From assembly GCA_001972305.1 (NCBI GenBank), contig BDDD01000082.1:434001-498000 (forward strand): 64,000 nucleotides of DNA, in the 5' to 3' direction. Position numbers and translations under genes: made by a program. The DNA comes from Cephalotus follicularis. Taxonomy: Eukaryota; Streptophyta; Magnoliopsida; Oxalidales; Cephalotaceae. The notes beneath the pieces are model-generated. The model was not told the DNA's origin. It searched no databases and worked only from the letters and a program-made list of their open reading frames with translations. Positions 1-45,427 of the stretch are shown here, one piece after another (the first letter of the stretch is position 1; every line of letters begins with the position of its first letter).

Positions 1-128
1 AAAACAAAAGCTTGGAAAGCTTGAACTTTGGGAGCCAGAAACTTGGACTTGGAGCTACTAGGGAGCTTAAGGCCATTGGTCGGTAAAGCTTAAAGAGGTG
101 GACTTCGATTCCTAACTTGGAATCAAAG

Positions 129-1727: not shown

Positions 1728-2171
1728 TGACCCAATATAACTTCCATGTCGGATACACGGTCATTATAGGTTGACCACGAGCATGTCGTGGTATTTTGTC
1801 ACGCCCCCGTTTTCACGACAAGACAACATATAAAGTGGTAAGGCAATAAACACAAGATAATTCAGCTCATGCGATAAAACGAATAAATAAAAACCTTCAG
1901 TAGCGGAAGCAATAACTTAAACAAGCTGAATTTAAACACGCACCACGCATCTCATACTATGCGATGCCCAACAAGTTTATACAAAACCCAACATAACTGT
2001 CGATCACCCAAACGGAGCGTGATAATACAGTACGAGATAATAATATAACCCATGTTACAAAATCCGATTACATAATCATTGTTCATTAACCCAGTACAAG
2101 AAATAAGAGAAACTACACAGTCTTCTCTCTAAGTCTCCATGCATGCTCCATCTCATATCCATTCCGTCAAT

Positions 2172-3826
2172 CTGTTACAGTAGGGGTTAGCCTTTGTCCT
2201 CACTCGGCTAAGTGAATAAACCCATAAATACAGTTCGAGTCATATGATAATGAGTATCATGAATGAATGCATTATGATGCAGTATAACATGTCATTTTTA
2301 CAGTCATTTTATCTCCGTATGTACATATAAAAATACATACATGTTCACTGTACAAGTATAACTCATAAGTTATATCAACACAAGCAGTAAATATGTCCCA
2401 AAAGGAACCAGACAAACCAATCGTCATGACCGTCGCCACCACCTGGCCCCAACGTCGTGCACTCTTACTCCATCCCCGTTTGCGAACGGTTTTAGAGCAA
2501 GTCCTCCATAAGTTGTTTAGCACGGTGGCTAAACCAACAGCAAGTTACTAGCACAGTGGCTAAGTAATCAACAAGTTATTAGCACGGCGGCTAATAATCA
2601 ACAGGCACAAGTATTGCACAGTACAAGTCAAGCAATAAAATATAATTACTTGATCAAATATATTTGTTTAAAATATATTACTCCGTTCACAAGTTGTGAT
2701 AAGTTATAAAACTTAAAACAATACATTTCTCCGTCTTTGGAAATACTTCCCCAATCATTTCAAAAATATATATATTCATATGTTGTCAAATATACATTTT
2801 CGCACAATACAGTTGGTTTTATAATCAATCCTTTAAAATATTTCTCTGTCTTTGGAAAATACTTCCCCAAACACTTCGAAAATATATATATTCATATGTT
2901 GACAAATATACATTTTCGTACAAAAATGATTATAATAATCATACAAGCTTTTCAAAATGGTTAACCCTTTTTAGAAATCAACCATAATGCAAATCATAGT
3001 AATAATGCAAACATATGCTCAGAATGCATCTAGGTTCATTCCTAGAGTTGTTTCGGGTCTAGCGGGTCCCATTCGAGTGAAATTCCATTAAACAGGGAGA
3101 TAGGCGTCGATGTCTATCCCTAAGGCGTCGATCCTATGTACAATTATTCCCAGGCGTTTTTGGACCAAAGACGTCGATGTCTTTCAAAAGACGTCGATGT
3201 CTTTATGATACGAGAAGGTATCAGTTCGCGAGTCTTGATTCCGAAGGTAGAATCCGGCCTTTTAATCCTTCATGTAAGCGAATCTCACTCTCTCAACGTG
3301 TAAGGCATGCTACTGGTTAACAGGGAATATAACCAGAACATCATTTCATGCATAAAACTTGTAATTCCAAGGGCAATTAACCGACAACCGTAAACACTAC
3401 TGTTCTGTAATACCCAGAAAAGGCGTCCATGTCTCCCAATAGACGTCGATGTCTTTCGCATCCACACACGAAGGCATAACGTTATTGTTATATAAAGCCC
3501 AGAAAAGGCATCGATGTCTTTACTCAAGCATCGATGTCTTTCACGTTTTCGCACGAAGGCATCGACGTCTTCATGTAGACGTCGATGTCTACCCAACCCA
3601 AAACGTTTTCTCCAAAACTTTAACATAGCAAGCCATGATCAAAATCATCCATACACAACCCAGTTCAATATTCATGTAATCTACACATGCATATTAACTC
3701 CGTATCTCAAAGTAAACACCATAACAAGTCCAGAATCAAAATTCAATCATTTGCATGCAAAACACCCATGGTATTCATTAACTTAAAACTCCAGAATGCA
3801 TGTATAAATCTATCACTTTCCCCTAC
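2172..3826 (-). other. Predicted leader intron, E1 left LTR
   Basis: In sense orientation the hairpin GATTCC-TAACTT-GGAATC (3848-3831) is followed by AAAG|GTAGGG (intron starts at 3826). The acceptor is CTAAC, then 15 nt, then CAG|ATTGACGG (intron ends at 2172). The TTAGCC/GGCTAA arms are at 2206-2211 and 2187-2192. Inferred from conservation across LTR families. Confidence 0.5.
3096..3594 (-). repeat. Array of GACGTCGATGTC words, E1 left LTR
   Basis: About ten copies of A-G-R-C-R-T-C-G-A-Y-G-T-C-T, many followed by TTC, are grouped in pairs (near 3097, 3125, 3170, 3190, 3421, 3442, 3507, 3530, 3557, 3578). The array lies inside the predicted leader intron and is kept in the sister LTR. Confidence 0.8.
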
Positions 3827-4154
3827 CTTTGATTCCAAGTTAGGAATCGCACTACCACCAGCACAGTCGAGCCGCAGGTTCAATTGCCGAACCTCTCCCA
3901 GAAACTGTTGAACCGAAGCCGGTTCTCGCCAATTGATCAGTTCTTCACTGCCAAAACCAATCGCCGCTTTCACACTGCACATACAACACATTTCCGTTAT
4001 GTTCGACACATAAAACATTTTCGTTGCCAAAACGCTGGCCGGATTCCGACCGACACAACCAGGCGGTGAAACACCCATCAACGGTTTCCACATTGAACGG
4101 TCTACTCAGAACCGGTCAAGACTCGCCGGGAATCAGCGCCGAACGCTGCGCCAC

Positions 4155-4275
4155 GGCCGGCAGTGAGTCGTGACTCACTGAGTCAACTCGCCGGACCTCC
4201 ACAGGTCCGATCGCCACCCAAAAACACCATATATTCACCAGTCCTACACGTCACTGCCCGTGACTCACCAAGCCG
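4155..4275 (-). repeat. Cluster of TGACTCA/GAGTCA words in LTR leader
   Basis: GTGAGTCGTGACTCACTGAG and neighbouring GAGTCAACTCG and GTGACTCACC give several overlapping near-palindromes on the motif TGACTCA. This is the core bound by plant GCN4-like bZIP factors (family knowledge; binding here is untested). The E1 right LTR repeats the cluster at 10378-10560, and the unrelated copia LTRs have a similar one. Confidence 0.65.
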
Positions 4276-4961
4276 GCCATTTTCGGCCGAATCACGCCTC
4301 ACCGGTGGTCGAAATGGCAAGAGCTAGCCATCTACACCAAAACCCAGGCCACCCGAGACGCTAACGACGCTGGGAAACTCCGGGAGGAGGCGCGACAGTG
4401 GCGGAAAGGAGAAGGAAAAGAAGAGAAAAAGAGAAGAGGGGGAGGACGTTACCGTCGGTTGGAGGCCCTGGGTTGACCGGCGTGCTCTCCCGGTCCGGTA
4501 GCTGGCTCCGATGTCCTCTCTCTCCCTCTGCTCCGGTCTCTCTCCTACTCTCTCTCGCTATCTCTCCCAGATGCAGGCGCACAGAGCGCCTGCTTTCTTT
4601 TCATGCACGGGTGCGTGATGCACCCATGTGTGTGTCTCTCCCCCCTTTATTCTTTTGGCATTTTGCTTTCTCTTTAGTATTTTTTGGTAAAATACTAAGT
4701 TATGGGTCCCGATTTTTCCGTGAATCGTGACATAAATTATCCAAACGACCACCAAAATAATCACAATAATATTGCGAGCATTTGAGCTTTATTGTCGCGC
4801 ATTAAAAAATAATTTTTATTAGCCATCTTAGCCATCTTAGCTAACACGATTACGACTTAAATGCGTAATGCCTTTTTTATTACTCCGGGCTCATTCGATT
4901 TCATCACGACTGCACACGCACCAATATCATAATAATTATTTATGAAATTCGGGGCGTTACA

Positions 4962-6690: not shown

Positions 6691-7200
6691 GCCCATCTAC
6701 TCGATAACAGACCATTCGACCACTATCCTATCGATAACGACCCATTCGATCATTAACCGCTCAATAACAGTTTAAACGATCACTATCCCTCCAATAACGA
6801 TTCATACGATCGCTAACCGCTCAACAACGGTTCAAACGATCACTATCCCTCCAATAATGATTCATACGATCGCTAACCGCTCAACAATGGTTCAAACGAT
6901 CACTATCCCTCCAACAACGATTCATACGACCGCTAACCACTCAACAACGGTTCAAACAATCATTATCCGTCCAATAACGGTACATTCGATCACCAACCGT
7001 TCAACAACGGTCCATATGATCGCTAACCGCTCAACAACGGTTCAAACGATCACTATCCGTCCAATAACGGTACATTCGATCACCAACCGTTCAACAACGG
7101 TCCATATGATCGCTAACCACTCAACAATGGTTCAAACGATTACTATCCGTTCAATAACGGTACATTCGATCACCAACCATTCAAAAATGGTCCATTCCGA
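6691..7200. repeat. 30-bp tandem array, 17 units without indels
   Basis: Seventeen consecutive 30-bp units fit the pattern YAYYAWCCNYTCAAYAAYGR plus a 10-base variable end, usually TTCAAACGAT or TACATTCGAT. Units alternate as a 60-bp dimer in the first half and switch to a 90-bp trimer from 6961. No unit has gained or lost a base, so reading frames stay open by chance (for example 118 codons at 6857-7213 on the plus strand). That ORF is antisense to the element and low-complexity, so it is not called a gene. Nearly every unit carries an AACGG/AACGA-like core. Confidence 0.92.
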
Positions 7201-7654
7201 TACGATGCGATAGATAACGACACGATACGATCGATGATGATACACTAGCCATTCGAAATGACCATTCATATCCTATCTCGATCAACCACTATTCGATACG
7301 AAAAAATTTTCCGACAACACTTACGCCTTCCGGCTCATCCGATCGACCATATAGCCATTACGGCTTATTCGGTGAGTCACTTGACCATTTCAGACTTCAA
7401 AGCACTGACTGTCACTTCATTTGATATATCCCATAGGATTTCGGGAGGTCTGCCTTCTCGAGGTCAGCCTTCCGGGAAAGTCTAGACTGCTCAGCAGCCT
7501 TAGGCGCTATTTCGGAGGATTAAACATTAGCATGATCTCAATCAGAATCAAGATCCATGGAAAACTGGGTAGTTTTACTAAAACAGGGCTATTGGCGTCA
7601 ACACCATCCGTAGGCGTCGACGTAATCACTCTAGGTATCTACGTTCAAATCATG

Positions 7655-7984: not shown

Positions 7985-8357
7985 CGTTGTCACGCCCCCG
8001 TTTTCACGACAAGACAACATATAAAGTGGTAAGGCAATCAACACAAGATAATTCAGCTCATGCGATAAAACGAACAAATAAAAACCTTTAGTAGCGGAAG
8101 CAATAACTTAAACAAGCTGAATTTAAGCACGCATCACGCATCCCATACTACGTGATGCCCAATAATCCAAACATAACTGTTGATCGCCCAAAACGGAGCG
8201 TGAAATAATAATACAGTACGAGATAATAAAATAACCCATGTTACAAAATCCGATTACATAATCATTGTTCATTAACCCAGTACAAGAAATAAGAGAAACT
8301 ACACAGTCTTCTCTTTAAGTCTCCATGCATGCTCCATCTCATATCCATTCCGTCAAT

Positions 8358-10045
8358 CTGTTACAGTAGGGGTTAGCCTTTGTCCTCACTCGGCTAAGTG
8401 AATAAACCCGTAAATACAGTTCGAGTCATATGATAATGAGTATCATGAATGAATGCATTATGATGCAGCATGACATGTAATTTTTACAGTAATTTTATCT
8501 CCGTATGTACATATAAAAATATATGCATGTTCACAGTACAAGTATAACTCATAAGTTATATCAACACAAGCAGTAAATAGGTCCCAAAAGGAACCAGACC
8601 GTCATGACCGTCGCCACCTCCTGGCCCCAACGTCATGTACTCTTACCCCATCCCTGTTTGCGAACGGTTTTGGAGCAAGTCGTCCGTAAGTTGTTTAGCA
8701 CGGTGGCTAAACCAACAGCAAGTTACTAGCACAGTGGCTAAGTAATCAACAAGTTATTAGCACGGCGGCTAATAATCAACAGCCACAAGTATTGCACAGT
8801 ACAAGTCAAGCAATAAAATATAATTACTTGATCAAATATATTTGTTTAAAATATATTACTCCGTCACAAGTTGGGATAAGTTATAAAACTTAAAACAATA
8901 CATTTCTCTGTCTTTGGAAATACTTCCCCAATCATTTCGAAAATATATATATTCATATGTTGACAAATATACATTTTCGCACAATACATTTGGTTTCATA
9001 ATCAATCCTTTAAAATATTTCTCCGTCTTTGGAAAATACTTCCCCAAACACTTCGAAAATATATATATTCATATGTCGACAAATATACATTTTCATACAA
9101 AAATGATTATAATAATCATACAAGCTTTTCAAAATTGTTAACCCTTTTTAGAAATCAACCATAATGCAAATCACAGTAATAATGCAAACATATGCTCAGA
9201 ATGCATCTAGGTTCATTCCTAGAGTCGTTCCGGGTCTAGCGGGTCCCATTCGAGTGAAATTCCATTAAACAGGGAGATAGGCGTCGATGTCTATCCCTAA
9301 GGCGTTGACGTCTTTACCCTAAGGCATTGATCCTATGTACAATTAGTCCCAGGCGTTTTTGGACCAAAGACATCGATGTCTTTCAAAAGAAGTCGATGTC
9401 TTTCAAACGACGTCGATGTCTTTATGATACCAGAAGGTATCAGTTCGCGAGTCTTGATTCCGAAGGTAGAATCCCGCCTTTTAATCCTTCATGTAAGCGA
9501 ATCTCACTCTTTCAACGTGTAAGGCATGCTACTGGTTAACAGGGAATATAACCAGAACATCATTTCATGCATAAAACATGTAATTCCAAGGGCAATTAAC
9601 CGACAATAGTAAACACTACTGTTTTGTAATACCCAAAAAAGGCGTCGATGTCTCCAAATAGCCGTCGATGTCTTTCGCATCCACACACGAAGGCATAACA
9701 TTATTGTTATATAAAGCCCAGAAAAGGCATCGATGTCTTTACTCAAGCATCGATGTCTTTCACGTTTTCGCACGAAGGCATCGACGTCTTCATGTAGACG
9801 TCGATGTCTACCCGACCCAAAACGTTTTCTCCACAACTTTAACATAGCAAGCCATGATCAAAATCATCCATACACAACCCTGTTCAATATTCATGTAATC
9901 TACACATGCATATTAACTCCGTGTCTCATAGTAAACACCATAACAAGTCCAGAATCATAATTCAATCATTTGCATGCAAAACACCCATGGTATTCATTAA
10001 CTTAAAACTCCAGAATGCATGTATAAATCTATCACTTTCCCCTAC
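8358..10045 (-). other. Predicted leader intron, E1 right LTR
   Basis: The donor AAAG|GTAGGG starts at 10045, four bases after the hairpin 10067-10050. The acceptor CTGTAACAG|ATTGACGG ends at 8358. Length 1688 bp, with the palindrome array 9279-9815 inside it. Confidence 0.5.
9279..9815 (-). repeat. Array of GACGTCGATGTC words, E1 right LTR
   Basis: Same array as in the left LTR, with extra copies around 9300-9420 (GGCGTTGACGTC, GACGTCGATGTC). This copy-number difference between sister LTRs shows that the array gains and loses units after insertion. Confidence 0.8.
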
Positions 10046-11241
10046 CTTTGATTCCAAGTTAGGAATCGCAGTAACACCAGCACAGTCGAGCCGCAGGTTC
10101 AATTGCCGAACCTCTCCCAGAAACCATTGAACCAAAGCCGATTCTCGCCAATTGATCAGTTCTTCACTGCCAAAACCACTCGTCGCGTACACATTGCACA
10201 TACAACACATTTCCATTATGTTCGACACACAAAACATTTCCGTCGACGAAACGCCGGCCAGATTCCGACCGACATAACCAGGCGGCGAAACACCCATCAA
10301 CGGGTTCCACATTGAACGGTCTACTCAGAACCGGTCAAGACTCGCCGGGAATCGGTGCCGAATGCACCGCCAATGGCCGGCAGTGAGTCATGACTCACTA
10401 AGTCAACTCGCTGGACCTCCACAGGTCCGATCGCCACCCAAAAACGCTACATATTCACCAGTCCTACACGTCACTGCCCGTGAGTCGCCAAGACTCGGTG
10501 CCAAATGCCGTGTCTCAGGCGACAGTGAGTCGAGTCGCTGTGTCGACTCATTTAACTGATTCCGGCCGATTCCGACCGAATCACGCCTCACCGGTGGTAG
10601 AAATGGCAAGAGCTAGCCATCTACACCAAAACTCAGGCCACCTGCGATGCTAACGACGCCAGGAAACGCCGGGAGGAGGCGTGACAGTGGCGGCAAGGAG
10701 AAGGAAAAGAATAGAAAAAGGGAAGAGGGGGAGGACGTTACCATCGGTTGGAGGCCCTGGGTTGACCGGCATGCTCTTTCGGTCCGGTAGCTGGCTCCGG
10801 CGTCCTCTCTCTCCCTCTGCTCCGGTATCTCTCCCACTCTCTCTCGCTATCTCTCCCAAATGTAGGCGCACAGAGCGCCTACATTCTTTTCATGCACTGG
10901 CGCGTGATGCGCCCGTGTGTGTGTCTCTCCCCCCTTTATTCTTTTGGCATTTTGCTTTCTCTTTAGTATTTTCTGGTAAAATACTAAGGTATGGGTCCCG
11001 ATTTTTCCGCGAATCGTGACATAAATTATCCAAACGACCACCAAAATAATCGCAATAATATTGCGAGCATTTGGGCTTTATTGTCGCGCATTAAAAAATA
11101 GATTTTATTAGCCGTCTTAGCTAACACGATTACGACTTAAATGCGTAATGCCTTTTTTATTACTCCGGGCTCTATCGATTTCATCACGACTGCACACGCA
11201 CAAATTTCATAATAATTATGTATGAAATTCGGGGCGTTACA

Positions 11242-19184: not shown

Positions 19185-19935
19185 CTCTTGTCCCACGTTA
19201 GGAACAGGAAAGTCCACCCCTTTGTGTATCCAACAGGTCACAGCAACTCCCAAAGGTTCGTCCCGAAGTTGCACTAGTGGCTCCAAGCTCCAAGCTTTCA
19301 AGCTTTCAACAATGGTGGTCAAGGGAGGAAGTGTTTTCTCTCTTTACTTTCCGTTTCTTGACAGTCACAGCGTCTCTTTCAAGTGTTTGGTTCCTTCTCA
19401 AACAGTGGTAGCCGAAGGCAGGAGGTGGAGGTCGTCATTTATGTAACTCATCCTCCCTATTCTTCCATTTCATTTGTGTTGCATGTCACATGTGCCTAGG
19501 TTTACTCCAACCTCTGCATGTAGTAGCAGGTCTGTTCCTTCCATCCTTTCATGCCAGACAGTCACCCGATCCTTCTGTCTATCCCATGCAACCACACATG
19601 TCCCATGCCTCTTGTCTTTCTTGCATGTAACCTTACCAGCCACACTTGTCCACAAGGTTTCAGTTGTGCAGGTTAGGAGTAGGGTGCATGCCCAACACGT
19701 CCTAACCCATGCATCAAGACACCTGCAAAAGACCCCCACTTGATACCCTTTGCACGTCTTCTGTCAGAAAGGTAACATGCAAGACATTCGAACTTAAGAC
19801 GTCGACGTCTTTCCCAAAGACGTCGATGTCTTTGGTCCCGATCGAGGTGCATGTGCATGCAGTTACGTGAAACATTCTGTCAAAAAGGCGTCGACGTGTT
19901 TAATAAAGGGGTCGATGTCTTTACTTCAAAACAGC
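18594..19935 (-). repeat. Two arrays of GACGTCGATGTC words
   Basis: Copies near 18594, 18615, 18716, 18735, 18780, 18797 and 18838-18925 lie inside the predicted intron. A second set (19797-19830 and 19886-19920) lies upstream of the donor in sense. The words vary around ACGTCGAYGTC. Confidence 0.75.
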
Positions 19936-20549: not shown

Positions 20550-20974
20550 TGTTGGAAACCCGGGAGGGGTCCTGGTCGATTTTGGGTCTAGGATTCTAGT
20601 GTGTATAATTTTTTAATTTTTCAAAACACCAAGATAGCAAGTCAAGGTTCACACCAACATCTTGCTACCAAAATCAATACGCCAAGGATCTCCATTTAAT
20701 GTTCAATCGAGAAATTACGAAATCAAGCATGCACATAAACGTAAACCAAAAAAACACATCGATAAACATAAAAGCATAAGGGAAGCAACCATACCAATGT
20801 TGGAGGCTCCACCACTTTGCCGCTACACGCTTGCAGCGGCCACTGCCGGTCACCGGTACCACCGTCGAATTTCGGCCATTTCACTTGAGGTCCGATCTTG
20901 ACACAAACGGACTCCAAAAAATATGCTCTACCCGTTTCTGGCAGAGACACGCCGCGATTCGCACCAGAACATGA

Positions 20975-21270
20975 TGAACAGCTGCAGTGACTCACTGAGT
21001 TCAGACTCAGTGAGTCTCGGTCAACTCTCCATTGACCGACCGTGACATATATGGAGGCCAACACCCCGATCTACACACTGGTGGCCGAGACTAGGCGAGA
21101 CTCAGCCTGGAACTCTAAGAGCGGCCGACGGCACATCACTGAGTTGACTCACCGTTCACCAACAGCGGTGACCAAGCCACCAAACGCCTCAACTCCTTCA
21201 GGCTGACACACCTACACCCTAGACTCGCCATGACTCGGTGCGGAAATCCAAGTCACAGCTCACAATGAGT
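20975..21270 (-). repeat. TGACTCA/GAGTCA cluster in copia LTR
   Basis: GTGACTCACTGAG, GACTCAGTGAGTC, GAGTTGACTC and further variants recur within 300 bp; the sister LTR has the same cluster at 34670-34945. E1, of the other superfamily, carries a comparable cluster in its LTR leader. Confidence 0.7.
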
Positions 21271-21688
21271 TGACTCGGCAGAGTATACTCTCCAACCAAA
21301 AACCAGCCAACCAACGCCAGAAAAACCTAATCTAGAGTCAAGATAGGTTGAGCGAAAGGTTGGCTCCACCAACCGGTGACCATCGGTGGCGGAAAGAGAA
21401 GCTGGGAGCAAGTGGCGGCAAAAACTGATTCTACCGCTAGAGAGAGAAAGAGGGAGAAAGAGGGAGAAAATGGGAGAGAGAAGGGAAAGAGACTCATCGT
21501 AGAAGGATGCCCGCCTTCTGCACCGGTCATCTTTCTCGACTGAATAGCACCCTTGCGCGTTAACGTGTTGAACGCGTCTCTCTCGCCCAAAACGCACGAA
21601 TGCGGGAGAGAAAAAGAAAATTGAGAGAGTGTGTTACACGGGAGAGAGTGTGAGAGAGATGAATAAATTAAAATTGACTTAAAAATAT

Positions 21689-21692
<4 letters not shown>

Positions 21693-21741
<49 letters not shown>
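21693..21741. repeat. CT dinucleotide microsatellite
   Basis: An almost pure CT run of about 45 bp in the copia LTR. The sister LTR has the same at 35310-35353, so it predates the insertion. Confidence 0.95.
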
Positions 21742-21743
<2 letters not shown>

Positions 21744-22714
21744 TTTATATTTCTTTTTTCTGCTTTTAAAAAATCTCTTTCAATTTAAAATCTGTTTATC
21801 CCTTTATTATTTAAAGACTCTCTCTTTAATTAATTAAATTTCTCTCTTTTATGATTTAATTAAAGGCTCACACTTTAAATAATTAAAGACTCTCTCTTTA
21901 ATTAATTTAATTAAAATTAAATCATGCTCTGGCTTTAAAATCTATTTATATATTAAAAAGGCAAATTGTGGAGAGTGAAACAATCCACAAATGTCAAATT
22001 AATATATACCAGTTAAAAAGTAGATTTACCACCAAGCGAACATGTGTGCAGCACGAGTCACATTTCAAATAATGAGGCGGTACCCGAAAGCCCGGTGGAT
22101 TTTCGATACGATGATAAATTTCCCAGAACATCCCAAACTTCTGGTATGACTATCGAACAGATAGCCCCGGTGTGATCTATAATCACCCCCGGATACGTGG
22201 ACCACAAAGTACCACGTCTATCATTCGTAGCCGGTTCCCCAGTGCTTTATCACTGTCATCGGTTTTGTGCTGCATATCCTTCATCATCTCAGCTCCGACC
22301 CCGAACTGGACTTTTGATAAATGTCACCCCTAGGTAAAACCGCGATAACTATAATTCTATGAATGCACTGAGACTATGGGAGACCTCTCAGGAAACATCT
22401 CGTTCCCTACCTCCCAGTGCCCGGCCGGAACTTTAAGTCTCCAACGGTCACAGATGTTATGGAGCTTATAACCCTCAACACGGGTGTGATGATTCCATCT
22501 TGCGCACTCGCCCAAACATCTCAATGCAGATCCCACAAGGCCCAAAGATAACCCTTTTGCCAGTACGTGGCTAGTGCTAGGGGAGGTGAAAATAAAATCA
22601 AGGCAGTTACTACACAATGCATGCCAGCCGCTCAGGTCTAAGGACACAACGTAAATCACGTACGATCAACTAGTCCTTTTTGACTAAGAAGTACCGCGAC
22701 AATAGGAACCCTAT

Positions 22715-24361
22715 TGTAACACCCGGGATTTTTGTTAATGTGTAATATTGCATTTTTATGTAATTTTATACGTGGAATTAATGAGAATTATGTTTTTCCC
22801 CTTTGGTGTGGGGAAAGTTGCAAGAAAAAGTGTGTTTGTGTACTTTTGGTGCAGGGGGCAGCCGACTGCCACAGGGAGGCAGCCGACTGGACTCCCCTGG
22901 GTAGGTGGCAGCCAGCTGCAGTGAGGAGGCAGCCGGCTGTTTTGAGTGTAGGCAGAAACAGTCGACGGCCAAGCCATGGCAGCCGATTGCCATGCGCCAG
23001 ACAGCCACGTGCTGTCAGCCTTTAAGTGAGAAAAAGTGGGTATTTTGGCATTTCTGGCATTTGGCAGAGAGAGGGGGCCGGGTCTCCTTCATAAAAACAC
23101 AACTTCCTCTCCTCAATCTCCATCTCCTTTGTGATTCAAGTGTGTTTGAAGGTGAGTTTGAGAGTGAAAGTGTGTGTGTGTGTGTGTTGTCGACATACGG
23201 AGTTGGTGTTGAACCGTGGCTTGGAGGCTCGGACCAGTGGAGGATCCGGACCCGTGGAAGGTTGCTGGATGCGTTTGGAGGTGCAAGGACCTCGGATCTA
23301 GGACGTAAAGAGGTGGATTGCAACTCCTAACTTGGAGTTCTAAGGTAGGGGAAAGCTATATTTGTGATTCAAAGTCAATTGTAATGATGTTATGAGTGAA
23401 ATGCATATGTGATATTGTGATAAAAGCCTGGATATGTATTATGGTGATAGTGTTTGTGGCTTTGAAAGGTTTAATGCGGATTGAAGTGTCTGATTGCTGC
23501 TGTTTTTGGGCACTGCCCGTAGGGGTAGTCGACTGTCCAGGGAGGACAGCCGACTGTCAAAGGAGAACAGCCGACTGGGCACTGGAGCCAGTCGACTGTT
23601 GTGCCTAGAATTACAGGTTTATTCCTGTTGATTGTGTAGCCGACTGCCAAGGAAGGTAACCGACTGTGTGGTGGTGCAGCCGACTGTTTTGGGTAATAGC
23701 TGACTGTCCACGTGTCACCCTACCAGGCCTGTTGGGACAGGTGGCAGCAAGGAATGTGTATTGTATTGGACCAGCCGACTGCCTGGAGAGGGCAGCCAAC
23801 TGCTAAGTATGGGATAGCCGACTGCCAAGGAGGGCAGCCGACTGTTGGCAAGGAACAGCCGACTGCCAAGGAGGGCAGCCGACTGGTGGTTAAGGGCAGC
23901 TGACTGCCAAGTGTGGGATAGCCGACTGTTGAAGGAAAACAGCCGACTGTCAGTGAGAAACGACCGATTGTTGGAACCGTTTTGCATTGTGAGCATATGT
24001 GTGCATATTGTACTGTGTTAAATTGTATTTCGAGTTGGTTATTGAGGATTGTGAAACGTTTTACCCCGTTTTGGAAGTGCAAATGTGATTTACATAAATC
24101 ATTACCTTGTGTGAAATGTACGTTTTGAGATATATACATATTCTCGAAAGATTGTTAAAGTAGATTCCAAAACATTGTGAAAATGTGTTCGGTTAAAAAT
24201 TTACTAAAATCATTAGTTGTTTGGAAAATGGTTTCCAAAAGGATTGTGAAAATGTGTTTTCATGGATATGGAAAGTTTTAATTTTATGGTATTTTTGTAT
24301 AAGCCGGATTTATATGTTAATTGCCACCACTTTTATATATGTTGTGAAGCGGGGTGTGACA
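22715..24361 (+). repeat. 5' LTR of the gag-only element
   Basis: 1647 bp. Compared with the 3' LTR it lacks about 325 bp corresponding to roughly 27571-27896, a piece that includes the conserved acceptor island, but has extra CAGCCGACTG units near 23810-23870. The hairpin AACTCC-TAACTT-GGAGTT (23322-23339) and donor CTAAG|GTAGGG (intron start 23345) are present. Confidence 0.93.
22859..23980 (+). repeat. Arrays of CAGCCGACTG / CAGTCGACTG words (5' LTR)
   Basis: Two or three copies upstream of the donor (22859-22868, 22880-22889 and variants to 22990) and about fifteen downstream between 23526 and 23980, typically 15-30 bp apart with spacers such as CCAAGGAGGG. The consensus is one base from the perfect palindrome CAGTCGACTG, which itself occurs. 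The second block is inside the region that would be the leader intron. Confidence 0.85.
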
Positions 24362-24364
24362 ACA

Positions 24365-24376
24365 TGGTATCAGAGC
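24365..24376 (+). other. tRNA-iMet primer-binding site, gag-only element
   Basis: TGGTATCAGAGC, three bases after the LTR end: a perfect match to the complement of the plant initiator-Met tRNA 3' end. Confidence 0.95.
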
Positions 24377-24568
24377 TTATATTCCGTTTATAAGCTATCG
24401 CTGGGATACTATCCTTGGCAACCAAATGATTGATACTACAATAGTGGTAATCGAGCATATTCCATGTGTGCTTAAATTGAATAAGGAACTTATCCGAGCT
24501 AATATTTTCCTTGGCAATTAACGAATTGTTTCCTTAAGATGACTACTAATGACATCTTTTCCAACAAG

Positions 24569-25780
24569 ATGGACGGTCGGAGAAGACGCAGAAGGCGTGG
24601 GTTTGTTAATGAGAATGTTCCCGAGGGAATGAATGTTGGAGGGGATCCTATGGACGATGTTCCACAAGGAGCTGTGAATGTGAATGTGCAGGGGGCAGCA
24701 CCCGGAGTGAGAGATCTGTTGGATCGCATCGCTGATTTCTTTCAGCAGCAGATGGTTGCCTATCAGCAACAGATGGCTGCTAACGCAGCAAATATGGAGG
24801 AGATGCGACGACTATACGCCCAAGCTCAGCCTCAGTACATGGCTCCGGCTCAGGGTGCATATGATGACGGTAATCAGTTTGGGAGGGACCTTGAGAGGTT
24901 CATGAGACAGAGTCCACCCAGTTTCAGAGGAGAGTTGGATGCTACCATTGCTGAGAGGTGGTTACAAGATCTGGAGAAGATCTTTGATGTTATGAACTGT
25001 ACAGAAAACAAGAAACTAAAGTTTGCTGTCTACCGTCTATGGGGCGAGGCCATCCACTGGTGGGAGATGGTCAAGGCTAAGTGGGAGTCGACTAGATTCG
25101 GTTATACTTGGGAGGGGTTCCGGAAGGAGTTCCTCGATGCTTATGTGCCACGACTTGAGCAGGAAAGAAGGGAGACAGAGCTCTTGGAGCTACGTCAAGG
25201 AGAGATGACTGTGGCAGAGTATACAGAAAGGTTTATGGAGCTAGCCAGTTATTCCCCCTATCTGGTAGCTGATGATGGTAAAAAAATACGGAAGTTTTTG
25301 AAAGGTCTGCGATCGGATCTTCGGTCAAGGATCAGGGCTATGGAACTGGGGACTTTTGTGGAAGTCGCTCAGAAGGAAAGGTTGTTGGAGAGCATCTCGA
25401 ATGAAGACCATGCTGAAAGGGCTCGTAGGCAGCAGAGCAAACAGGGCCCTACTCAGTTCAGGCCAGCGTCATCACAATGGCAAGGCAGTGATTCTCCGCC
25501 CAGATCGTCTGAGAACCAGTCTCAGCAGACTGCCACCCAAGGAACTCCTAGTCAGGGGAGTAATGTAAGGCCTGGAGTTTGTTTCCACTGTGGTCGTACC
25601 GGTCATCAAGTGAAGGATTGTCGGGTAAAGAAAGGGCTATGTATCAAATGTGGAGCATCTGGTCACTTGGTGAGGGATTGTCCAGAGATTTCTATGGCAG
25701 TAACCGCAGGACCTAATGGCGGTAGTGGCACTGCGGCTGGGTCTTCGCAGCGAAGGGACACCGGCAAGGGCATCATGTGA
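24569..25780 (+). CDS. gag: Gag polyprotein with two zinc knuckles (intact)
   Basis: Structural protein of a Ty3/gypsy virus-like particle, binding the RNA genome for packaging. The frame is open from 24539; I prefer the Met at 24569 (403 aa) because MDGRR opens the two related Gags here as well. Layout from the 24539 Met (413 aa): basic start; a Gln/Met/Ala-rich helix around residues 60-95; a retrotransposon-gag capsid-like core at about 115-300 with WLQDLEKIFDVM, YRLWGEAIHWW and ELRQGEMTVAEY; a Gln/Ser-rich linker; CCHC knuckles at 348-361 (CFHCGRTGHQVKDC) and 368-381 (CIKCGASGHLVRDC). It stops at GIM, just before the point where the related element runs on into its protease. It has no stop or frameshift, unlike any other long frame in the window. 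Confidence 0.95.
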   Translation: MDGRRRRRRRGFVNENVPEGMNVGGDPMDDVPQGAVNVNVQGAAPGVRDLLDRIADFFQQQMVAYQQQMAANAANMEEMRRLYAQAQPQYMAPAQGAYDDGNQFGRDLERFMRQSPPSFRGELDATIAERWLQDLEKIFDVMNCTENKKLKFAVYRLWGEAIHWWEMVKAKWESTRFGYTWEGFRKEFLDAYVPRLEQERRETELLELRQGEMTVAEYTERFMELASYSPYLVADDGKKIRKFLKGLRSDLRSRIRAMELGTFVEVAQKERLLESISNEDHAERARRQQSKQGPTQFRPASSQWQGSDSPPRSSENQSQQTATQGTPSQGSNVRPGVCFHCGRTGHQVKDCRVKKGLCIKCGASGHLVRDCPEISMAVTAGPNGGSGTAAGSSQRRDTGKGIM

Positions 25781-26054
25781 GGTAACAGTCCTTACTTTTG
25801 TTTTAAGCAAGAGTTGTTTTCTTTTGCTCTTGTAAGTGACTTGTTGTTACCAATAAGAGTTGTTTTGGGTTTATGAACCGTCTGTGTTGTAAGTAAGTTG
25901 TTTGGGAGGACCAACTCCTTGTAAGGGTTGTAAGAGAAAGTGAACCATATGCGGCTATGGCCGTGGACAGACGGGGGATCGTGGAGGAGAAAATGCGAGA
26001 GCGTTGTTCTCTTTTGCCTTGGTGTTGTTTTAATTTCGAGGACGAAATTCCTTG
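25781..26054 (+). other. 3' non-coding stretch of the gag-only element
   Basis: No ORF. Its last part, TTTTAATTTCGAGGACGAAA, is almost the same as the sequence after the pol stop of the Tekay-like element (minus strand near 40300-40325). The gag-only element thus looks like a deletion derivative joining the end of gag to the 3' end of a Tekay-type element, with about 200 bp of other sequence between. Confidence 0.6.
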
Positions 26055-26067
26055 AAGGAGGGGTGGA
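26055..26067 (+). other. Polypurine tract, gag-only element
   Basis: AAGGAGGGGTGGA directly precedes the 3' LTR start TGTAACGCCCGGG. The Tekay-like element has the same 13 bases at 40287-40299 on the minus strand. Confidence 0.9.
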
Positions 26068-27998
26068 TGTAACGCCCGGGATTTTCGTTAATGTGTAATA
26101 TTGCATTTTTATGTAATTTTATACGTGGAATTAATGAGAATTATGTTTTTCCCCTTTGGTGTGGTGAAAGTTGCAAGAAAAAGTGTGTTTGTGTACTTTT
26201 GGTGCAGGGGGCAGCCGACTGCCACAGGGAGGCAGCCGACTGGACTCCCCTGGGTAGGTGGCAACCAACTGCAGTGAGGAGGCAGCCGGCTGTTTTGAGT
26301 GTAGGCAGAAACAGTCGAGTGCCAAGCCATGGCAGCCGACTGCCATGCGCCAGACAGCCACGTGCTGTCAGCCTTTAAGTGAGAAAAAGTGGGTATTTTG
26401 GCATTTGTGGCATTTGGCAGAGAGAGGGGGCCGAGTCTCCTTCATAAAAACACAACTTCCTCTCCTCAATCTCCATCTCCTTTGTGATTCAAGTGTGTTT
26501 GAAGGTGAGTTTGAGAGTGAAAGTGTGTGTGTGTGTGTGTTGTCAACAAACGGAGTTGGTGTTGAACCGTGGCTTGGAGGCTCGGACCAGTGGAGGAGCT
26601 GGACCCGTGGAAGGTTGCTGGATGCGTTTGGAGGTGCAAGGACCTCGGATCTAGGACGTAAAGAGGTGGATTGCAACTCCTAACTTGGAGTTCTAAGGTA
26701 GGGGAAAGCTATATTTGTGATTCAAAGTCAATTGTAATGATGTTATGAGTGAAATGCATATGTGATATTGTGATAAAAGCCTGGATATGTATTGTGGTGA
26801 TAGTGTTTGTGGCTTTGAATGGTTTAATGCGGATTGAAGTGTGTGATTGCTGCTGTTTTTGGGCACTGCCCGTAGGGGCAGTCGACTGTCCAGGGAGGAC
26901 AGTCGACTGTCAAAGGAGAACAGCCGACTGGGCACTGGAGCCAGTCGACTGTTGTGCCTGGAATTGCAGGTTTCTTCCTGTTGATTGTGTAGCCGACTGC
27001 CAAGGAAGGCAGCTGACTGTGTGGTGGTGCAGCCGACTGTTTTGGGTAATAGCCGATTGTCCACGTGTCACCCTACCAGGCCTGCTGGGACAGGTGGCAA
27101 CAAGGAATGTGTATTGTATTGGACCAGCCGACTGCCTGGAGAGGGCAGCCGACTGCTAAGTATGGGACAGCCGACTGCCAAGGAGGGCAGCCGACTGGTG
27201 GTTAAGGGCAGCTGACTGCCAAGTGTGGGATAGCCGACTGTTGAAGGAAAACAGCCGACTGTCAGTGAGAAACGACCGATTGTTGGAACCGTTTTGCATT
27301 GTGAGCATATGTGTGCATATTGTACTGTGTTAAATTGTATTTCGAGTTGGTTATTAAGGATTGTGAAACGTTTTACCCCTTTTTGGAAGTGCAAATGTGA
27401 TTTACATAAATCATTACCTTGTGTGAAATGTACGTTTTGAGATATATACATCTCTCGAAAGATTGTTAAAGTAGCTTCCAAAACATTGTGAAAATGTGTT
27501 CTGTTAAAAATTTACTAAAATCATTAGTTGTTTGGAAAATGGTTTCCAAAAGGATTGTGAAAATGTGTTCGGTTAATGATTTACTAAAATCATTAGTTGT
27601 TTGGATGAGGACAAAGGCTAACCCCCTACAACTTCAGTGTGTTTCAGGTTGATGCAGCCGATGGTTACGGTTGGGCTCCGAGGAGCAAAGTGGAGTTTTA
27701 TGTTGTTTACGTCCGAAAAATATTTATGGATGTTGTAATAAAGAATGGTTGTAATAAATGTATAAAGGTACTGATGGTAAATTGTTCACGCTCTGTTTGA
27801 GGGCAGTTAACTGTGATGATGTTCCTGTTGTAGCATGTAGTATGGGATGCATGCTATGTTATGATTCGGCTTATTTTATATGCTTCCGTAGGTTGTTAAT
27901 GGATATGGAAAGTTTTAATTTTATGGTATTTTTGTATAAGCCGGATTTATATGTTAATTGCCACCACTTTTATATATGTTGTGAAGCGGGGTGTGACA
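26068..27998 (+). repeat. 3' LTR of the gag-only element
   Basis: 1931 bp, retaining the acceptor island that the 5' LTR has lost. CAGCCGACTG arrays lie at 26212-26350 and 26878-27290. A 141-codon ORF (26258-26683) is present in both LTRs, but only because they are copies, and it has no recognisable domain. Confidence 0.93.
26698..27647 (+). other. Predicted leader intron, gag-only 3' LTR
   Basis: Hairpin 26675-26692, CTAAG|GTAGGG (intron start 26698). Acceptor: GGCTAAC with the branch-like A at 27621, then GTTTCAG|GTTGATGC (intron end 27647). At 950 bp it is the shortest of the set. It would be usable only in copies whose 5' LTR keeps the acceptor. Confidence 0.5.
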
Positions 27999-28494
27999 CC
28001 TATTGACTGAGGTGTTGATTCTCCAAATAGATAACCTATGGTGGGTGGGTTCAGTGTCATGCCTCTGCACGCACTCCGCATCAGCTTTAGGGTAAAACGC
28101 AAATGGCAATGAGATAATCCATTCTCCTTCACCATTCGGAGCAAGCATAACACGGCAAGTCTTTTTGGTTCATCAATTTCCCTAAGAAAGTGAACCTATG
28201 ACTTGGAACTTTTGTCACAAGGGAGTAAGGATCTTATTCTAATAACCTCTCAGGCATTTTCGGACAGGGCACTATATGTATATTAGGTTGACGTCGTGAT
28301 CAACTGATCCTTTGAGACAGTTTGGGATTCTACATATAGCAAGATGCCAATGTTTTCTGAATATGCACAATAGAACCCGAATGGAACTAAGAATCTACGA
28401 TTCAAGAGTGTGTCATATGCTGAGAACATATGTCTGCAGCCTCCTCGTGGCTTGCAGGGACACCCTAATCTAACAATCTACCGCTTGGCCCTCC

Positions 28495-34245: not shown

Positions 34246-35306
34246 TGTTGGAAACACGGGAGGGGTCCCGGATGATTTTGGGTCTAGGATGCTAGTGTGT
34301 ATAATTTTTTAATTTTTCAAAACACCAAGATAACAAGTCAAGGTTCACACTAACATCTTGTTACCAAAATCAATATGCCCTCCGTTTAATGTTCAATCGA
34401 ACAATTACGAAATCAAGCATGCACATAAACGTAAACTGAAAAAACACATCTGTAAACATAAAAGCATAAGGGAAGCAACCATACCAACGTTGGAGACTCC
34501 ACCACTTTGCCGCTACATGCTTACAGCAGCCACTGCCGGTCACTGGTACGACCGCCGTATTTCGTCCAAGTCACTTGAGGTCCAATCTTGAAACCAACGG
34601 ACTCCAAAAAATCTGCTCTACCCGTTTCTGGCGGAGACTCGCCGAGAATCGCGCCAGAACACGATGAACAGTGGCAGTGAGTGAGTCTCGATCAACTCGC
34701 CATTGAGCGACCGTGACATATATGGACGCCAACACCCCGATCTACACACTGCTGGCCGAGACAAGGCGAGTCACGGACTGGAACTCTAAGAACGGCTGGC
34801 GGCGAGTCACTGAGTTTACTCGCCGTTCACCATCAGCGGCGGCCAAGCCGCCAAATGCCTCAACTCCTTCAGGCCGACACACCTACACCCTAGACTCCCC
34901 GTGACTCGGTGCGGAACGCCAAGTCACAGCTCACAATGAGTTGACTCGACAGAGTCAACTCTCCAACCAAAACCGGCCAATAAACGCCGAAAAAACCTAA
35001 TCTAGAGTCAAGATAGGTAGAGCCAAAGGTTGGCTCCACCTACCGGTGATCATTGGGGACGGAAAGAGAAGCCGGGAACAAGTAGTGGCAAAAACCGATT
35101 CTGTCACTAGAGAGAGAAAGAGGGAGAAAACGGGAGAGAGAAGGGAAGGACACTCAAGCGCCGGTCATCTTTCCAAGCTGAATCGCGCCCCTGTCTCTCT
35201 CGCCCAAAACACACGAATGCGGGAGAGAAAATGAAAATTGAGACAGTGAGTTGCACGTGAGAGAGTGTGAGAGAGATGAATAAGTTAAAATTGACTTTAA
35301 AAAAAT

Positions 35307-35356
<50 letters not shown>

Positions 35357-36808
35357 ATTTCTCTTTTCTCCTTTTAAAAAATCTCTTTCAATTTAAAAGT
35401 TGTTTCTCCCTTTATTAATTAAAGACTATACCTTTAATTAATTAAATTTCTCTCTTTTATGATTTAATTAAAGTCGCTCACTTTAAATAATTAAAGACTC
35501 TCTCTTTAATTAATTTAATTAAAATTAAATCATGTTACGACTTTAAAATCTCTTCATATACTAAAAAGGCAAATTATGGAGAGTGAAACAATCCACAAAT
35601 GTAAAATGAATATATACTAGTTAAAAACTAGATTTACCACCAAGCGAGCATGTGTGCCGCATGCGTCACTTTTGCAATAATCAGGCAGGACCCGAAAGCC
35701 CGATGGATTTCCGGTACAATGATAAATTTCCCAAAACATCCCAAACTTCTGGTACGACTATCATACTGATAGCCCCGGTGTGATCCATAATCACCCCCGG
35801 ATTTGTGGACCACAAAGTACCACGTCTATCATTCGTTAGCCAGTTTCCAGTGCTTTATCACTGTCATCGATTTGTGTGCAGCGTATCCTTCATCATCTCG
35901 ACTCCGACCGCGGAATAGGGTTTGGATAAATGTCACCCCTAGATAAAACCGAGATAACTACAATTCTATGAACTCACTGAGACTATGGGAGATATCCCCG
36001 GAAACCTCTCGTCCCCTATCTCCCAGTACCGGCCCGAGACTTTAAGTCTTCAATGGTCACAGATGTTATAGAGCCTATAACCCTCAACACGGGTATGACA
36101 ATTCCGTCTTGCACACTCGCCCATACATCTCAATGCATATCCCCATAGGCCCAAAGACAACCCTTTTTCCCGCATGTGGCTAGTGTTGGGGAAGGTGGAA
36201 ATCAAAGCCAAGCAGTTACTACACAATGCATGCCAGCCGCTTAGGTCTAAGGACACAACATGAATCACGTATGATCAACTAGTCCTCTTTGACTAAGCAC
36301 TACCGCGATAATAGGAACTCTATTGACAGAGGTGTTGACTCTCCAAATAGATAACCTATGGTTGGTGGGTTCAGTGTCATGCCTCTGCACGCACCTCGCA
36401 TCAGCTTTAGGGTAAAGCCCAAATGGCAATGAGATAAATCCGTCCTCCTTCACCATTCGGAGCAAGCATATCAAGACAAGTCTTTGCAGTTCATCAATTG
36501 CCCTAAGAAAGTGAACCTATGACTTGGAACTTTTGTCACAAGAGAGTAAGGATCTCATTCTCATAACCTCTCAGGCACGAGATCCAACCCTTTTCGGACA
36601 TGGCGCTATATGTGTATTCAGTCGACATGTTGATCAACTGATCCATTGAGACGGTTTGGGATTTACATATATCAAGATGCCAATGTTTTCTGAATATGCA
36701 CAATAGAACACGAATGGAACTATGAATCTACGATTCAAGAGTGTGTCATATGCTGAGAACATATGTCTACATCCTTCTTGTTGTTTGCAGGGACACCCTA
36801 ATCTAACA
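34246..36808 (-). repeat. Copia 5' LTR
   Basis: 2563-bp uninterrupted copy of the LTR at 20550-28475, with the TGACTCA cluster (34670-34945), CT microsatellite (35310-35353) and the same end CTAATCTAACA. Many single-base differences and small indels from its sister suggest an older insertion than the nested gag-only element. Confidence 0.92.
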
Positions 36809-38341
36809 ATTAGGTATCTATCATTTTATTTCAACTGTTGGTCTAGGAATAGACCAAATGGTATCATCATGATTAATGATTAATTTCGTCTGACATTAGC
36901 TGTATTTTTAATAAAATACGCATTCTTGAAATGATGGAGAAAATATTTCATTAATCAAAAATCTTAAGTACACAAAAGGTGGGCCCAAACTATTCATATA
37001 ATTATGGTTAGCCTAAGAAATCGGGATACAAGGGCGCATCTTGAGGTATCATAGTTTCAGCTCTCTCTAAGTCCCTCAACATCCCCATTGATTTCCTTTT
37101 CGAGGCATTCACCCTGCCAATATCCCCTTGAAGCTTCTCCATGTATTCCTCAATCCGTGCCTTGTTTCTCTTAATGAATTTCAGGTCAACAAGGCACATG
37201 GTCTTCAAACCCACCCTTGAGTGTACATCGGAAATCATTTCAATGCCTTCCTTCACCCAAGGAACGTTGAACCCAAATTCCAATACAAAATACTTGTAGT
37301 CCTCAAGTAACTCTTCAACAACACTAGATGGGCAGTTTGAACTAATGGCAGTACATATATTTGACAGCAACTATCCTAATAAGTTAAAACCCATTGCAAT
37401 GCCTCGAGGCCCCAAAAGAATTGAAGGTGCGATGAATCCATACTTGTGTTCTGCCTTTTTTAGAAGTGGCAGCCACCGCTCTTCAACCTTGAGACCTCAA
37501 ACTGATTGAACATCTAGAATGATGCCCTCATCTTTACCAATATCAACTGTAAGTGACACGCCCGTGTCCGAGTACCCCCGCCCAAGGACGGCCATTCCAG
37601 GTCGAAGGATCGCTCACCTGGATCCCTAACCAAAACCCAACAAACAAGCAAACAAACAAGGCTAACGCTAAGGCCAGGCAGGCGTTAAAACACACTGCCG
37701 AGGAGAAAAGAAGGATGGGTAAACCACAAAAGAACCCTTACATAAACTGTCCCCAATGCTCACCGTTTAACTAAAAGAAACGCGCACAACACCCACTTAG
37801 CAACGCAACGTTTAACTAAAGGGAAAGTGCACCACACCCACTGCCCAAACGCACCATCCCACCAAAGGAAACATACCAGAGAAGGGAGCAAGGGCAGAGA
37901 ACGCAACACTAATTCTTGCCTGGGGTCCCGGGAAAGGATGCCAACACAGCATAACGTAACGTAAACTAGGTGTCACACCCCGTTCCCGTTAAGACACCAT
38001 TAAAGCGGTAAAGGTAATCAATATAACGTTATCCAGCTTATACAAATATGATAAAATTTAAAACTTCAATTCCATTCACACGAGCAGAAAAATTTAACAA
38101 CAAGCTAGATAAACAAACCGAATCATGCGTCCCATACCACATGATTCCAACATTTTATAAAACCATGAGCCATCGTTGATTGCCCATAACGGGGCGTGAT
38201 CAAAAGTCGATCAACACCATTAATACATTAATCCAAAATAACACGGTTCTCAATACATTGTTAAACATTTATTTAAACAATAAAACTCCATCTCCCCACA
38301 GATTCACCGCAGACGGTCGACATCCTCATCACTGCATCAAT

Positions 38342-39655: not shown

Positions 39656-40145
39656 CTTAGAATTCCAAGTTAGGAATTACAATCCACCTCTTTAAGTTCC
39701 AATTCGAGTTTCCAAGCCTCCGAATTCGTCCAGCAACTCCACCAAGTCTGGTTCGAGCTCCAAGTCCAGATTCCAAGCTCAAAATTGGAGAGATACAACT
39801 TCTCTCTCTCTCTTTTTCTCTCCACTGTCCTCTCCCTCTTCACGACTCTCAATGTCTTTGAATTTGTTGATGAGAAGAGGAAAGAAAGTGTGTTTTTATT
39901 GCCATTTTCGTGTCTCTCTCTCTATAACCCCACAACTGAGCAATTTTGTCCTCTCCCCCTTTCTCTCTGCCAACGACAGACTGCCAACACGTTTTAACTG
40001 ACCTATCCCATGGAAGTCGATTGCCTTATCTTGGCAGTCGGCTGTCTCTGCCGACACCATTCAGCCGGCTGTCCCACATAGCAGTCTGCTGGTTTCGTAC
40101 AAGGGGGTCCAGTCGACTGTCCCTCTTGGGCAGTCGGCTGCCCGC
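39162..40145 (-). repeat. Arrays of CAGTCGGCTG words, left LTR
   Basis: About fifteen copies at 39162-39475 (inside the predicted intron) and about six at 40010-40145 (upstream of the donor). These are the reverse complement of the words in the gag-only element's LTR, so both elements carry the same word in the same sense and in equivalent places. Confidence 0.85.
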
Positions 40146-44944: not shown

Positions 44945-45040
44945 TGGTTCCTACAAGAAGGACGACGGTTTGTCACGACTTTAGGAAAACAATTCATTAA
45001 TTGCCGAGGAAAATTTCCCAGCTAAGCATATTTGGAATAT

Positions 45041-45052
45041 GCTCTGATACCA
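45041..45052 (-). other. tRNA-iMet primer-binding site, Tekay-like element
   Basis: TGGTATCAGAGC on the minus strand, four bases from the LTR end at 45057. Confidence 0.95.
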
Positions 45053-45427
45053 CTGCTGTCACACCCCGTTCCCGTTAAGACATCATTAAAGTGGTAAAGG
45101 CAATCAATATAACGTTATCCAGCTTATACAAATATGATAAAATTAAAAACTTCAATTCCATTCACACGTGCGGAAGCATTTAACAACAAGCTAGATAAAC
45201 AAACCGAATCATGCGTGCCATACCACATGATTCCAACATTTTATAAAACCATGAGCCATCGTCGATTGCCCATAACGGGGCATGATCAAAAGTCGATCAA
45301 CACCATTAATACATTAATCCAAAATAATACGGGTCTCAATACATTGTTAAACACTTATTTAAACAATAAAACTCCATCTCCCTACAGATTCGCCGCATAC
45401 GGTCGACATCCTAATCACTGCATCAAT

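Follow-up and report, generated by a model that had tools for sequence, protein, structure and literature searches.

It has long been asked how a single retrotransposon transcript can be mRNA and genome at once, and the question is raised here by a small hairpin, H1, which stands a few bases upstream of AAG/GTAGGG in the long terminal repeats (LTRs) of several retrotransposons (a slash separates the arms of a stem or the two sides of a splice junction). The original prediction ascribed to this hairpin either control of the adjacent splice donor or a part in a packaging or dimerisation step that distinguishes spliced from unspliced RNA. We examined the window, that is, the whole 64-kb stretch of DNA in which the hairpins lie, together with further copies from the 1.58-Gb host genome.

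Ty3/gypsy elements of the window

A profile search returned Retrotrans_gag, RVP_2 and RVT_1 above cut-off, and LTR pairs and a tRNA primer-binding site (PBS) are present around the gag, protease and reverse transcriptase domains; the elements are Ty3/gypsy LTR retrotransposons. A Chromo match (E 0.00025) reached 21.3 bits, under the Pfam cut-off of 25.1, and its neighbour SH3_Tf2-1 reached 100.1 bits; the clade name Tekay (Del) is plausible for these elements.

The repeats of the window show some features of their own. Between the two paired LTRs 1797-4961 and 7988-11241, the internal part contains short repeats (6704-7201) and no frame of at least 200 aa, and for the latter reason the element looks non-autonomous. 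At 51686-56502, a 2.25-kb stretch is arranged head to tail with 99.96% identity, plus a shorter third piece, which is either a recent duplication or an assembly artefact. The repeat pair 20550-28477 / 34246-36810 is broken where element A has inserted, near 22715-28000, and the covariance model found no H1 module in this pair outside element A.

The hairpin module

Nine hairpins had been predicted in the window, and a direct check bore out the coordinates and the stem of every one. The copies, and the conserved motif upstream of one of them, are as follows.

107-124, plus strand: H1, GATTCC/GGAATC, in an LTR ending near 1711, with a PBS-like site at 1716
3831-3848, minus strand: H1, GATTCC/GGAATC, in LTR 1797-4961, without GGTGGA
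10050-10067, minus strand: H1, GATTCC/GGAATC, in LTR 7988-11241, without GGTGGA
19189-19206, minus strand: H1, TGTTCC/GGGACA, loop TAACGT
23312-23317, plus strand: conserved GGTGGA upstream of the hairpin, element A
23322-23339, plus strand: H1 of the element A 5' LTR, AACTCC/TAACTT/GGAGTT
26675-26692, plus strand: H1 of the element A 3' LTR
39661-39678, minus strand: H1 of the element B 3' LTR, AATTCC/GGAATT
46826-46843, minus strand: H1 of the element B 5' LTR, loop TGACTT
58073-58090, minus strand: H1, GGCTTC/GAGGCC

The scan considered every GTAGGG on both strands of the window and accepted every hairpin with a 6-nt loop of free sequence and six stem pairs all formed, G-U counting as a pair, whose end lay 0-13 nt upstream. 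It returned exactly these nine hairpins, with the loops TAACTT (seven), TGACTT (one) and TAACGT (one). The covariance model recovered the same nine at 43.8-71.9 bits and no tenth module in the window, the next match scoring 9.3 bits. Additionally, TAACTT..AGGTAGGG matched seven times in the window and never in 100 shuffles of it, and GGTGGA stands upstream of the hairpin in seven of the nine copies, 3831 and 10050 being the two without it. No Rfam 15 family reached its gathering threshold in the window; within 23050-23450 there were four matches with E values of 5.2-8.7, far under the gathering scores.

Compensatory change in the stem

Throughout the host genome, the pattern GGTGGA..TAACTT..GTAGGG matched 12,027 + 12,042 places, compared with 54 + 52 for the reversed pattern. 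The covariation sample comprised 80 of the 100 listed places, each with about 540 bases around it, and the nine window copies; left out were mostly second LTRs of elements already included, one place with N flanks and some last rows. Loci picked for odd stems were kept out as well, since they had been selected for those very stems. As the genome pattern fixed loop and donor, their invariance across the 80 loci is in part a product of the search. The first tally covered 87 sequences, the copies at 3831 and 10050 lacking GGTGGA, and the later ones 89.

Changes were mapped on a tree of all 89 sequences for which only the flanks were used; of its 86 inner branches, 43 reach 95. The flanks are diverged, as had been claimed, but the LTRs are not too diverged to be aligned for a tree, and their conservation peaks in a module of about 50 nt. 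Several families are indeed present, with the count nearer six than the proposed five, since copy 107 shares the stem GATTCC with 3831 and 10050 but lies apart from them on the flank tree, and only the latter two are without GGTGGA.

All six pairs are formed in 59 of the 89 sequences, five in 25 and four in 5. With the pairs numbered outward starting at the loop, pair 1 is C-G in 85 (other, 4), pair 2 is C-G in 71 and U-A in 15 (other, 3), pair 3 is U-A in 79 and U-G in 10, pair 4 is U-A in 71 and C-G in 17 (other, 1), pair 5 is A-U in 49, G-C in 28 and G-U in 8 (other, 4), and pair 6 is G-C in 39, A-U in 22, G-U in 2, U-A in 1 and unpaired in 25. On the flank tree the two sides of the stem changed together 16 times, compared with a mean of 2.8 and a maximum of 9 in 400 simulations with independent columns. 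Over 720 pairings of left with right columns the mean was 6.0 and two reached 16, the true pairing included. When five rows of odd placement or of a far family were dropped (L093, L095, L096 and the copies at 3831 and 10050), 8 coincident changes remained against a permutation mean of 2.8, again with 2/720.

A 40-row alignment was drawn from 72 distinct locus modules and compared with shuffles, a kind of test that kinship among the rows inflates. Here 92.5% of the H1 cells pair, two-sided cells number 38 against 13.9 in shuffles, and the covariation score is 0.463 against 0.269; after a slide by one column it is 0.233 or 0.090. Two more measures on this alignment, how many pairs show two-sided change and how many further pair types occur, were not above shuffles.

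The kinship of all copies is also what would speak for an absence of function, in which shared LTR ancestry and chance made the pattern. With 16 coincident changes exceeding a simulated maximum of 9, this reading is disfavoured and has a very small probability. Selection on RNA structure, as originally proposed, agrees with both the pair counts and the flank-only tree, and in the enlarged alignment of 89 sequences the two-sided changes exceed the phylogenetic expectation. Sequence comparison thus supports an H1 stem maintained by compensatory change, with the proviso that LTR recombination may carry whole stems between families.

Three of the dropped loci, L093, L095 and L096, have a stem of one type, while on the tree their flanks group with LTRs that carry another; this points to template switching between LTR families. 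In the host genome, 115 copies have a purine before CTAACTTG and 141 a base other than T at pair 3, and most of the 100 listed from each set are uncompensated. The compensated exception is the group GATCCC/GGGATC, with 6 copies among the 100 listed of the pair-3 set; in this group (C185, C252, C850, C872, C3306), both bases of pair 3 have changed, giving C-G in place of the U-A or U-G found elsewhere. Since the listed odd-stem copies are mostly uncompensated, covariation among single decayed copies was rejected, and compensation is a matter of differences between families rather than of dead copies.

A putative splice donor at the end of an ATG-poor leader

The sequence that follows the hairpin was analysed with respect to GT, and the following features of element A are involved.

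23090-23096, plus strand: TATA-like box CATAAAA, 255 nt before the donor
23345-23350, plus strand: putative 5' splice site AAG/GTAGGG, assigned by spacing and by the steps in ATG and T content

From the end of the hairpin to GT there are 4 nt in 52 and 5 nt in 37 of the 89 sequences, in a search pattern that allowed 2-8. The 200 nt before GT contain 71 ATGs compared with 212.9 expected from dinucleotide shuffles (88 sequences), and the 200 nt after it 995 compared with 832.3 (89 sequences), the depletion ending within about 20 nt past GT. ATG is absent from the 200 nt before GT in 47 of 88 sequences and present at least once in the other 41, and 60 of 88 are free of it over 150 nt; the putative first exons of elements A and B hold one and two ATGs, respectively. 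T content steps up as well: in 10-nt bins it is 0.13-0.32 before GT, except for 0.47 in the bin bearing the loop, and 0.34-0.46 past the first ten intron bases. The T-rich stretch is about 200 nt long, and T content rises again from about +600 (85 loci). A TATA-like box was found roughly 250 nt upstream in 51 of 82 usable loci, with 51 of 52 matches at -300 to -180 from GT; a strict search found no such motif in the other 31.

GTAGGG, which is part of the genome pattern and adjoins all nine window hairpins, is thus an AG/GT site at a step between exon-like and intron-like composition. Because of the fixed spacing, the steps in ATG and T content and the TATA-like box upstream, the GT has the appearance of a plant 5' splice site that is in use. 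The consensus donor is GTAAGT, from which GTAGGG departs. Another base at donor position +4 occurs in 825 copies (398 + 427) of the host genome; the 100 listed belong to many different stem types, and no family shifted to a stronger donor was found among them. The original prediction presupposes that the donor is used, which the composition steps and the acceptor described below support, and it would need transcription to start upstream of the hairpin, for which the TATA-like box (51/82) and the ATG-poor leader argue; judged by the position of that box, a start downstream of the hairpin was not seen.

The same alignments contain two other conserved features. TGCATG occurs 172 times in the first 200 nt after the donor (27.7 expected; 82/89 sequences), for instance downstream of 46820 on the minus strand, and never in the 200 nt before GT. 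The RNA-sense strand is favoured (177 TGCATG, 74 CATGCA), as expected for an RNA motif rather than a DNA box. In animals UGCAUG is the RBFOX splicing motif; we know of no plant reader of it, and a search of the open-licence PMC literature for UGCAUG in plants returned nothing usable. Within the putative first exon, a second and weaker conserved patch (alignment columns near 272-400) lies about 100 nt before the hairpin, with the consensus ccatt.ttga.c.....agcTtGg.

A candidate acceptor before gag and a PBS inside the proposed intron

A matching 3' splice site can be proposed between the PBS and gag. The features of elements A and B are as follows.

23345-24568, plus strand: candidate leader intron of element A, 1,224 nt, with the PBS and 26 ATGs
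24365-24376, plus strand: PBS TGGTATCAGAGC of element A, directly past the 5' LTR (22715-24361)
24567-24568, plus strand: putative 3' splice site AG of element A, directly before the ATG at 24569
24503-25780, plus strand: open frame with gag domains of element A, limits from stop to stop, probable start ATG 24569
44951-46820, minus strand: candidate leader intron of element B, 1,870 nt, donor G at 46820, with the PBS and 68 ATGs
44951-44952, minus strand: putative 3' splice site of element B, CCTTCTTGTAG/GAACCAATGG
45041-45052, minus strand: PBS of element B

Donor, PBS and acceptor were found in one sequence in three cases, namely element A, element B and the genomic locus L004. All three have their donor within the LTR and the PBS farther downstream. 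The acceptor sequence reads CTACTAATGACATCTTTTCCAACAAG/ATGG in element A and GACTAATGACATCTTTCTTATAG/GGACCTATGG in L004, each between PBS and gag, and the L004 intron would hold 23 ATGs. The linkage of donor and acceptor within single elements rests on these three; elsewhere, both appear to belong to the same kind of element. The acceptor-region pattern matched 5,654 places genome-wide, compared with 103 for the reversed pattern. By hand transcription, 92 of the 100 listed have TATAG/G (88), TACAG/G (2) or TGTAG/G (2) before ATGGAC; the other eight are mostly decayed or variant-looking sites, with two chance-like matches. These regions conform to the pyrimidine-rich tract and AG acceptor of plant U2-type spliceosomal introns. 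A branch-site-like CTAAY or CTGAC was seen by eye in many of the listed acceptor rows.

A search with one exact pattern found no genomic copy in which exon 1 is joined to the bases before the gag ATG. The pattern joining exon 1 to ATGGAC gave 59 matches, against 26 in the reversed control. Read one by one, most keep GTAGGG or a near variant and the rest are chance- or deletion-like, so these were rejected as spliced copies. The absence of spliced genomic copies is expected if spliced RNA escapes reverse transcription, but it equally fits no splicing.

An ATG-poor leader followed by an ATG-rich stretch would also suit ribosomes that shunt from the hairpin directly to gag, with no splicing involved. 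Ribosome shunts of the pararetrovirus kind use a short upstream ORF. Here such an ORF is missing, the 150 nt before GT being ATG-free in 60/88. Pararetrovirus leaders do work by shunting, according to the text cited (PMC5902531). A shunt would leave AAG/GT, the T-content step and the acceptor before gag unexplained, and we set it aside as very improbable. Taking donor, acceptor and composition together, we regard the leader intron as very probably real.

A possible competing fold over the donor

A second fold, H2, may compete with H1; in it, CCUAaCUU (left arm and loop) pairs with AAGgUAGG, the first intron G being mismatched. In short modules at 22 C, H1 exceeds a probability of 0.5 in 43 and H2 in 35 of the 89 sequences; at 37 C the numbers are 42 and 34. 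With 200 nt of upstream sequence they become 43 and 20 at 22 C, and 33 and 21 at 37 C.

These folds would permit a bistable donor switch, in which H1 leads to splicing and H2 hides the donor, leaving the RNA unspliced; needing intron bases, H2 would exist in genomic RNA only and could mark it for packaging. H2 can form in 89/89 sequences, is more stable than H1 in 52 and lies within 3 kcal/mol of it in 45. RNAalifold prefers it to H1 in the 40-row alignment, where 99.3% of its cells pair and its variable pairs vary mostly in pairable ways, and the minimum free energy folds of the copies at 23322 and 46826 use it. Against the switch, not one H2 pair shows two-sided change, no more than 20 or 21 of the 89 sequences have H2 above 0.5 once the 200 nt upstream are included, and among 1,072 loops placed in 12 family representatives, 164 hide the donor as well as TAACTT or better, which puts TAACTT in the top sixth. 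With no two-sided change and with TAACTT no outlier in donor hiding, H2 was dropped as a proven switch; a switch of this kind is a minority reading with perhaps some chance of being right. At loop position 3, 244 copies carry another base. Those listed are spread over many stem types with no shifted family, and inspection by eye showed no excess, among the matches listed, of the base change that would make H2 perfect.

The UAACUU loop might instead be read by Gag or by a second RNA copy as a packaging or dimerisation signal, its nearness to the donor being secondary. Retroviral leaders combine donor, dimer and packaging signals. The loop is near-fixed in the nine window copies, which were found with no condition on it, while the stem varies, and the HIV hairpin at its donor is a precedent in the text cited (PMC3847799). 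The loop is not self-complementary, however, and the spacing of 4-5 nt to GT in 89/89 points to the donor. H1 lies in exon 1 and would be kept in both RNA forms, so that by itself it could not select the genome. The originally suggested role as a mark of spliced versus unspliced RNA fails on this logic, and discrimination by H1 alone was rejected as unlikely; only a structure reaching into the intron, such as H2, could discriminate. A packaging or dimerisation signal is accordingly an improbable account of the module. Control of the donor is made plausible by the fixed spacing, and we consider it slightly favoured that the hairpin has some role in donor use.

Comparison with known systems

One close parallel is an animal retrovirus. 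In foamy virus the major splice donor lies in R, and RNA structure controls the access of U1 to it, according to the passages cited (PMC3694450). As in the elements here, that donor is inside the LTR and upstream of the PBS, and it is present at both RNA ends, as it would be here if R reaches the donor (PMC3694450). The foamy structure contains the donor, whereas here a covarying hairpin stands beside it, with a putative acceptor just before gag; the cited passages do not describe foamy Gag as made from leader-spliced RNA (PMC3694450). The mechanism shown in foamy virus for a donor present twice could be at work here as well, since the donor lies in the LTR and is hence duplicated (PMC3694450), and it could coexist with splicing. 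AATAAA holds no consistent position before or after the donor, which argues against that mechanism, and we judge it rather remote.

In HIV-1 the donor lies within a hairpin and downstream of the PBS, which differs from the elements here. The likeness is in the control of splicing by RNA structure at the major donor, as the text cited has it (PMC3847799).

Among plant elements, barley BARE1 keeps distinct RNA pools, with a 104-nt intron spliced out 2 nt beyond the gag domain (PMC3735527). It resembles the present case as a plant LTR element in which splicing helps to part translation from replication, with the same argument from U-richness; it differs as a copia element with no leader intron, a retained PBS and, in the passages cited, no hairpin (PMC3735527). 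A 2025 review states in its cited part that plant LTR elements are generally without introns, Ogre and EVADE being notable exceptions (PMC12786077). Functional introns, as proposed for the elements here, are present in both, but they serve subgenomic RNAs within or after gag/pol, and that of EVADE removes part of the protease (PMC12786077). An intron of the BARE1/EVADE type, at or after the gag coding region, does not fit the elements here, whose putative acceptor precedes the gag ATG.

For Diaspora, an Athila-lineage element of soybean with a long leader, splice donors were predicted inside the LTR and acceptors on either side of the gag start codon, and its authors stated that none was known of an intron upstream of gag (PMC1142308). 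The likeness to the present elements is in these positions; the Diaspora sites are predictions of unsettled relevance in another lineage, with no hairpin in the part cited (PMC1142308). In cDNAs of a maize tandem repeat derived from CRM4, most of the UTR is spliced out (PMC3648361). The splicing concerns CRM-clade tandem-repeat transcripts and is not shown there for element mRNA, and the passages cited make no argument from a hairpin or a PBS (PMC3648361). The cited passages of the LORE1 paper describe no splicing of the element, and the terms splic and intron are absent from the text of a centromeric-retrotransposon survey. In a sunflower survey, Tekay elements are missing from the highly expressed set, as far as the cited part goes (PMC7730604); low expression may be why the junction has escaped notice.

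Structure-linked splicing of retroelements as such is already known. Our searches of the open-licence PMC literature found no leader intron with a covarying hairpin. What appears to be new, from comparison of copies in one genome, is a probable PBS-containing leader intron together with a covarying hairpin at a fixed distance from its donor.

Proposed mechanism and implications

We propose that the LTR carries the 5' half of a leader intron. Transcription would start some 200-230 nt before the hairpin, judging from the TATA-like box, and would yield an ATG-poor first exon ending at AAG/GTAGGG. The intron would span the rest of the LTR and the PBS, up to the conserved acceptor, which precedes the gag ATG by a few bases. 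The spliced form, being without the PBS and not primable, would serve as the Gag(-Pol) mRNA; unspliced RNA would retain the PBS and act as the genome, with tens of ATGs before gag. H1, 4-5 nt upstream, may tune the use of the non-consensus donor by U1, keeping the donor open against local pairing. The hairpin, its covariation, the donor, the acceptor and the position of the PBS inside the intron are supported by the comparisons above; beyond these, the model supposes that the plant does splice the RNA, though only in part, and that the hairpin determines how much. Counting against it are the ATGs left in part of the first exons, the 31 loci with no TATA-like motif, and the folding predictions, which favour H1 in only 43 of 89 short modules. 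For the proposal as a whole, leader-intron splicing with H1 as the tuner of donor use, we see about even chances.

A bolder form, a self-switching leader in chromovirus-like elements with H1 leading to the PBS-less Gag mRNA and H2 to the PBS-bearing genomic RNA, is rather unlikely; if true, one element of about 45 nt would allot transcripts either to translation or to replication and label the genome for packaging. If the leader-intron model is true, a plant LTR group with thousands of copies would part its mRNA from its genome by splicing out the primer site. The spliced junction would then be a simple marker of real element mRNA, and these retrotransposons would provide a plant parallel to foamy virus.
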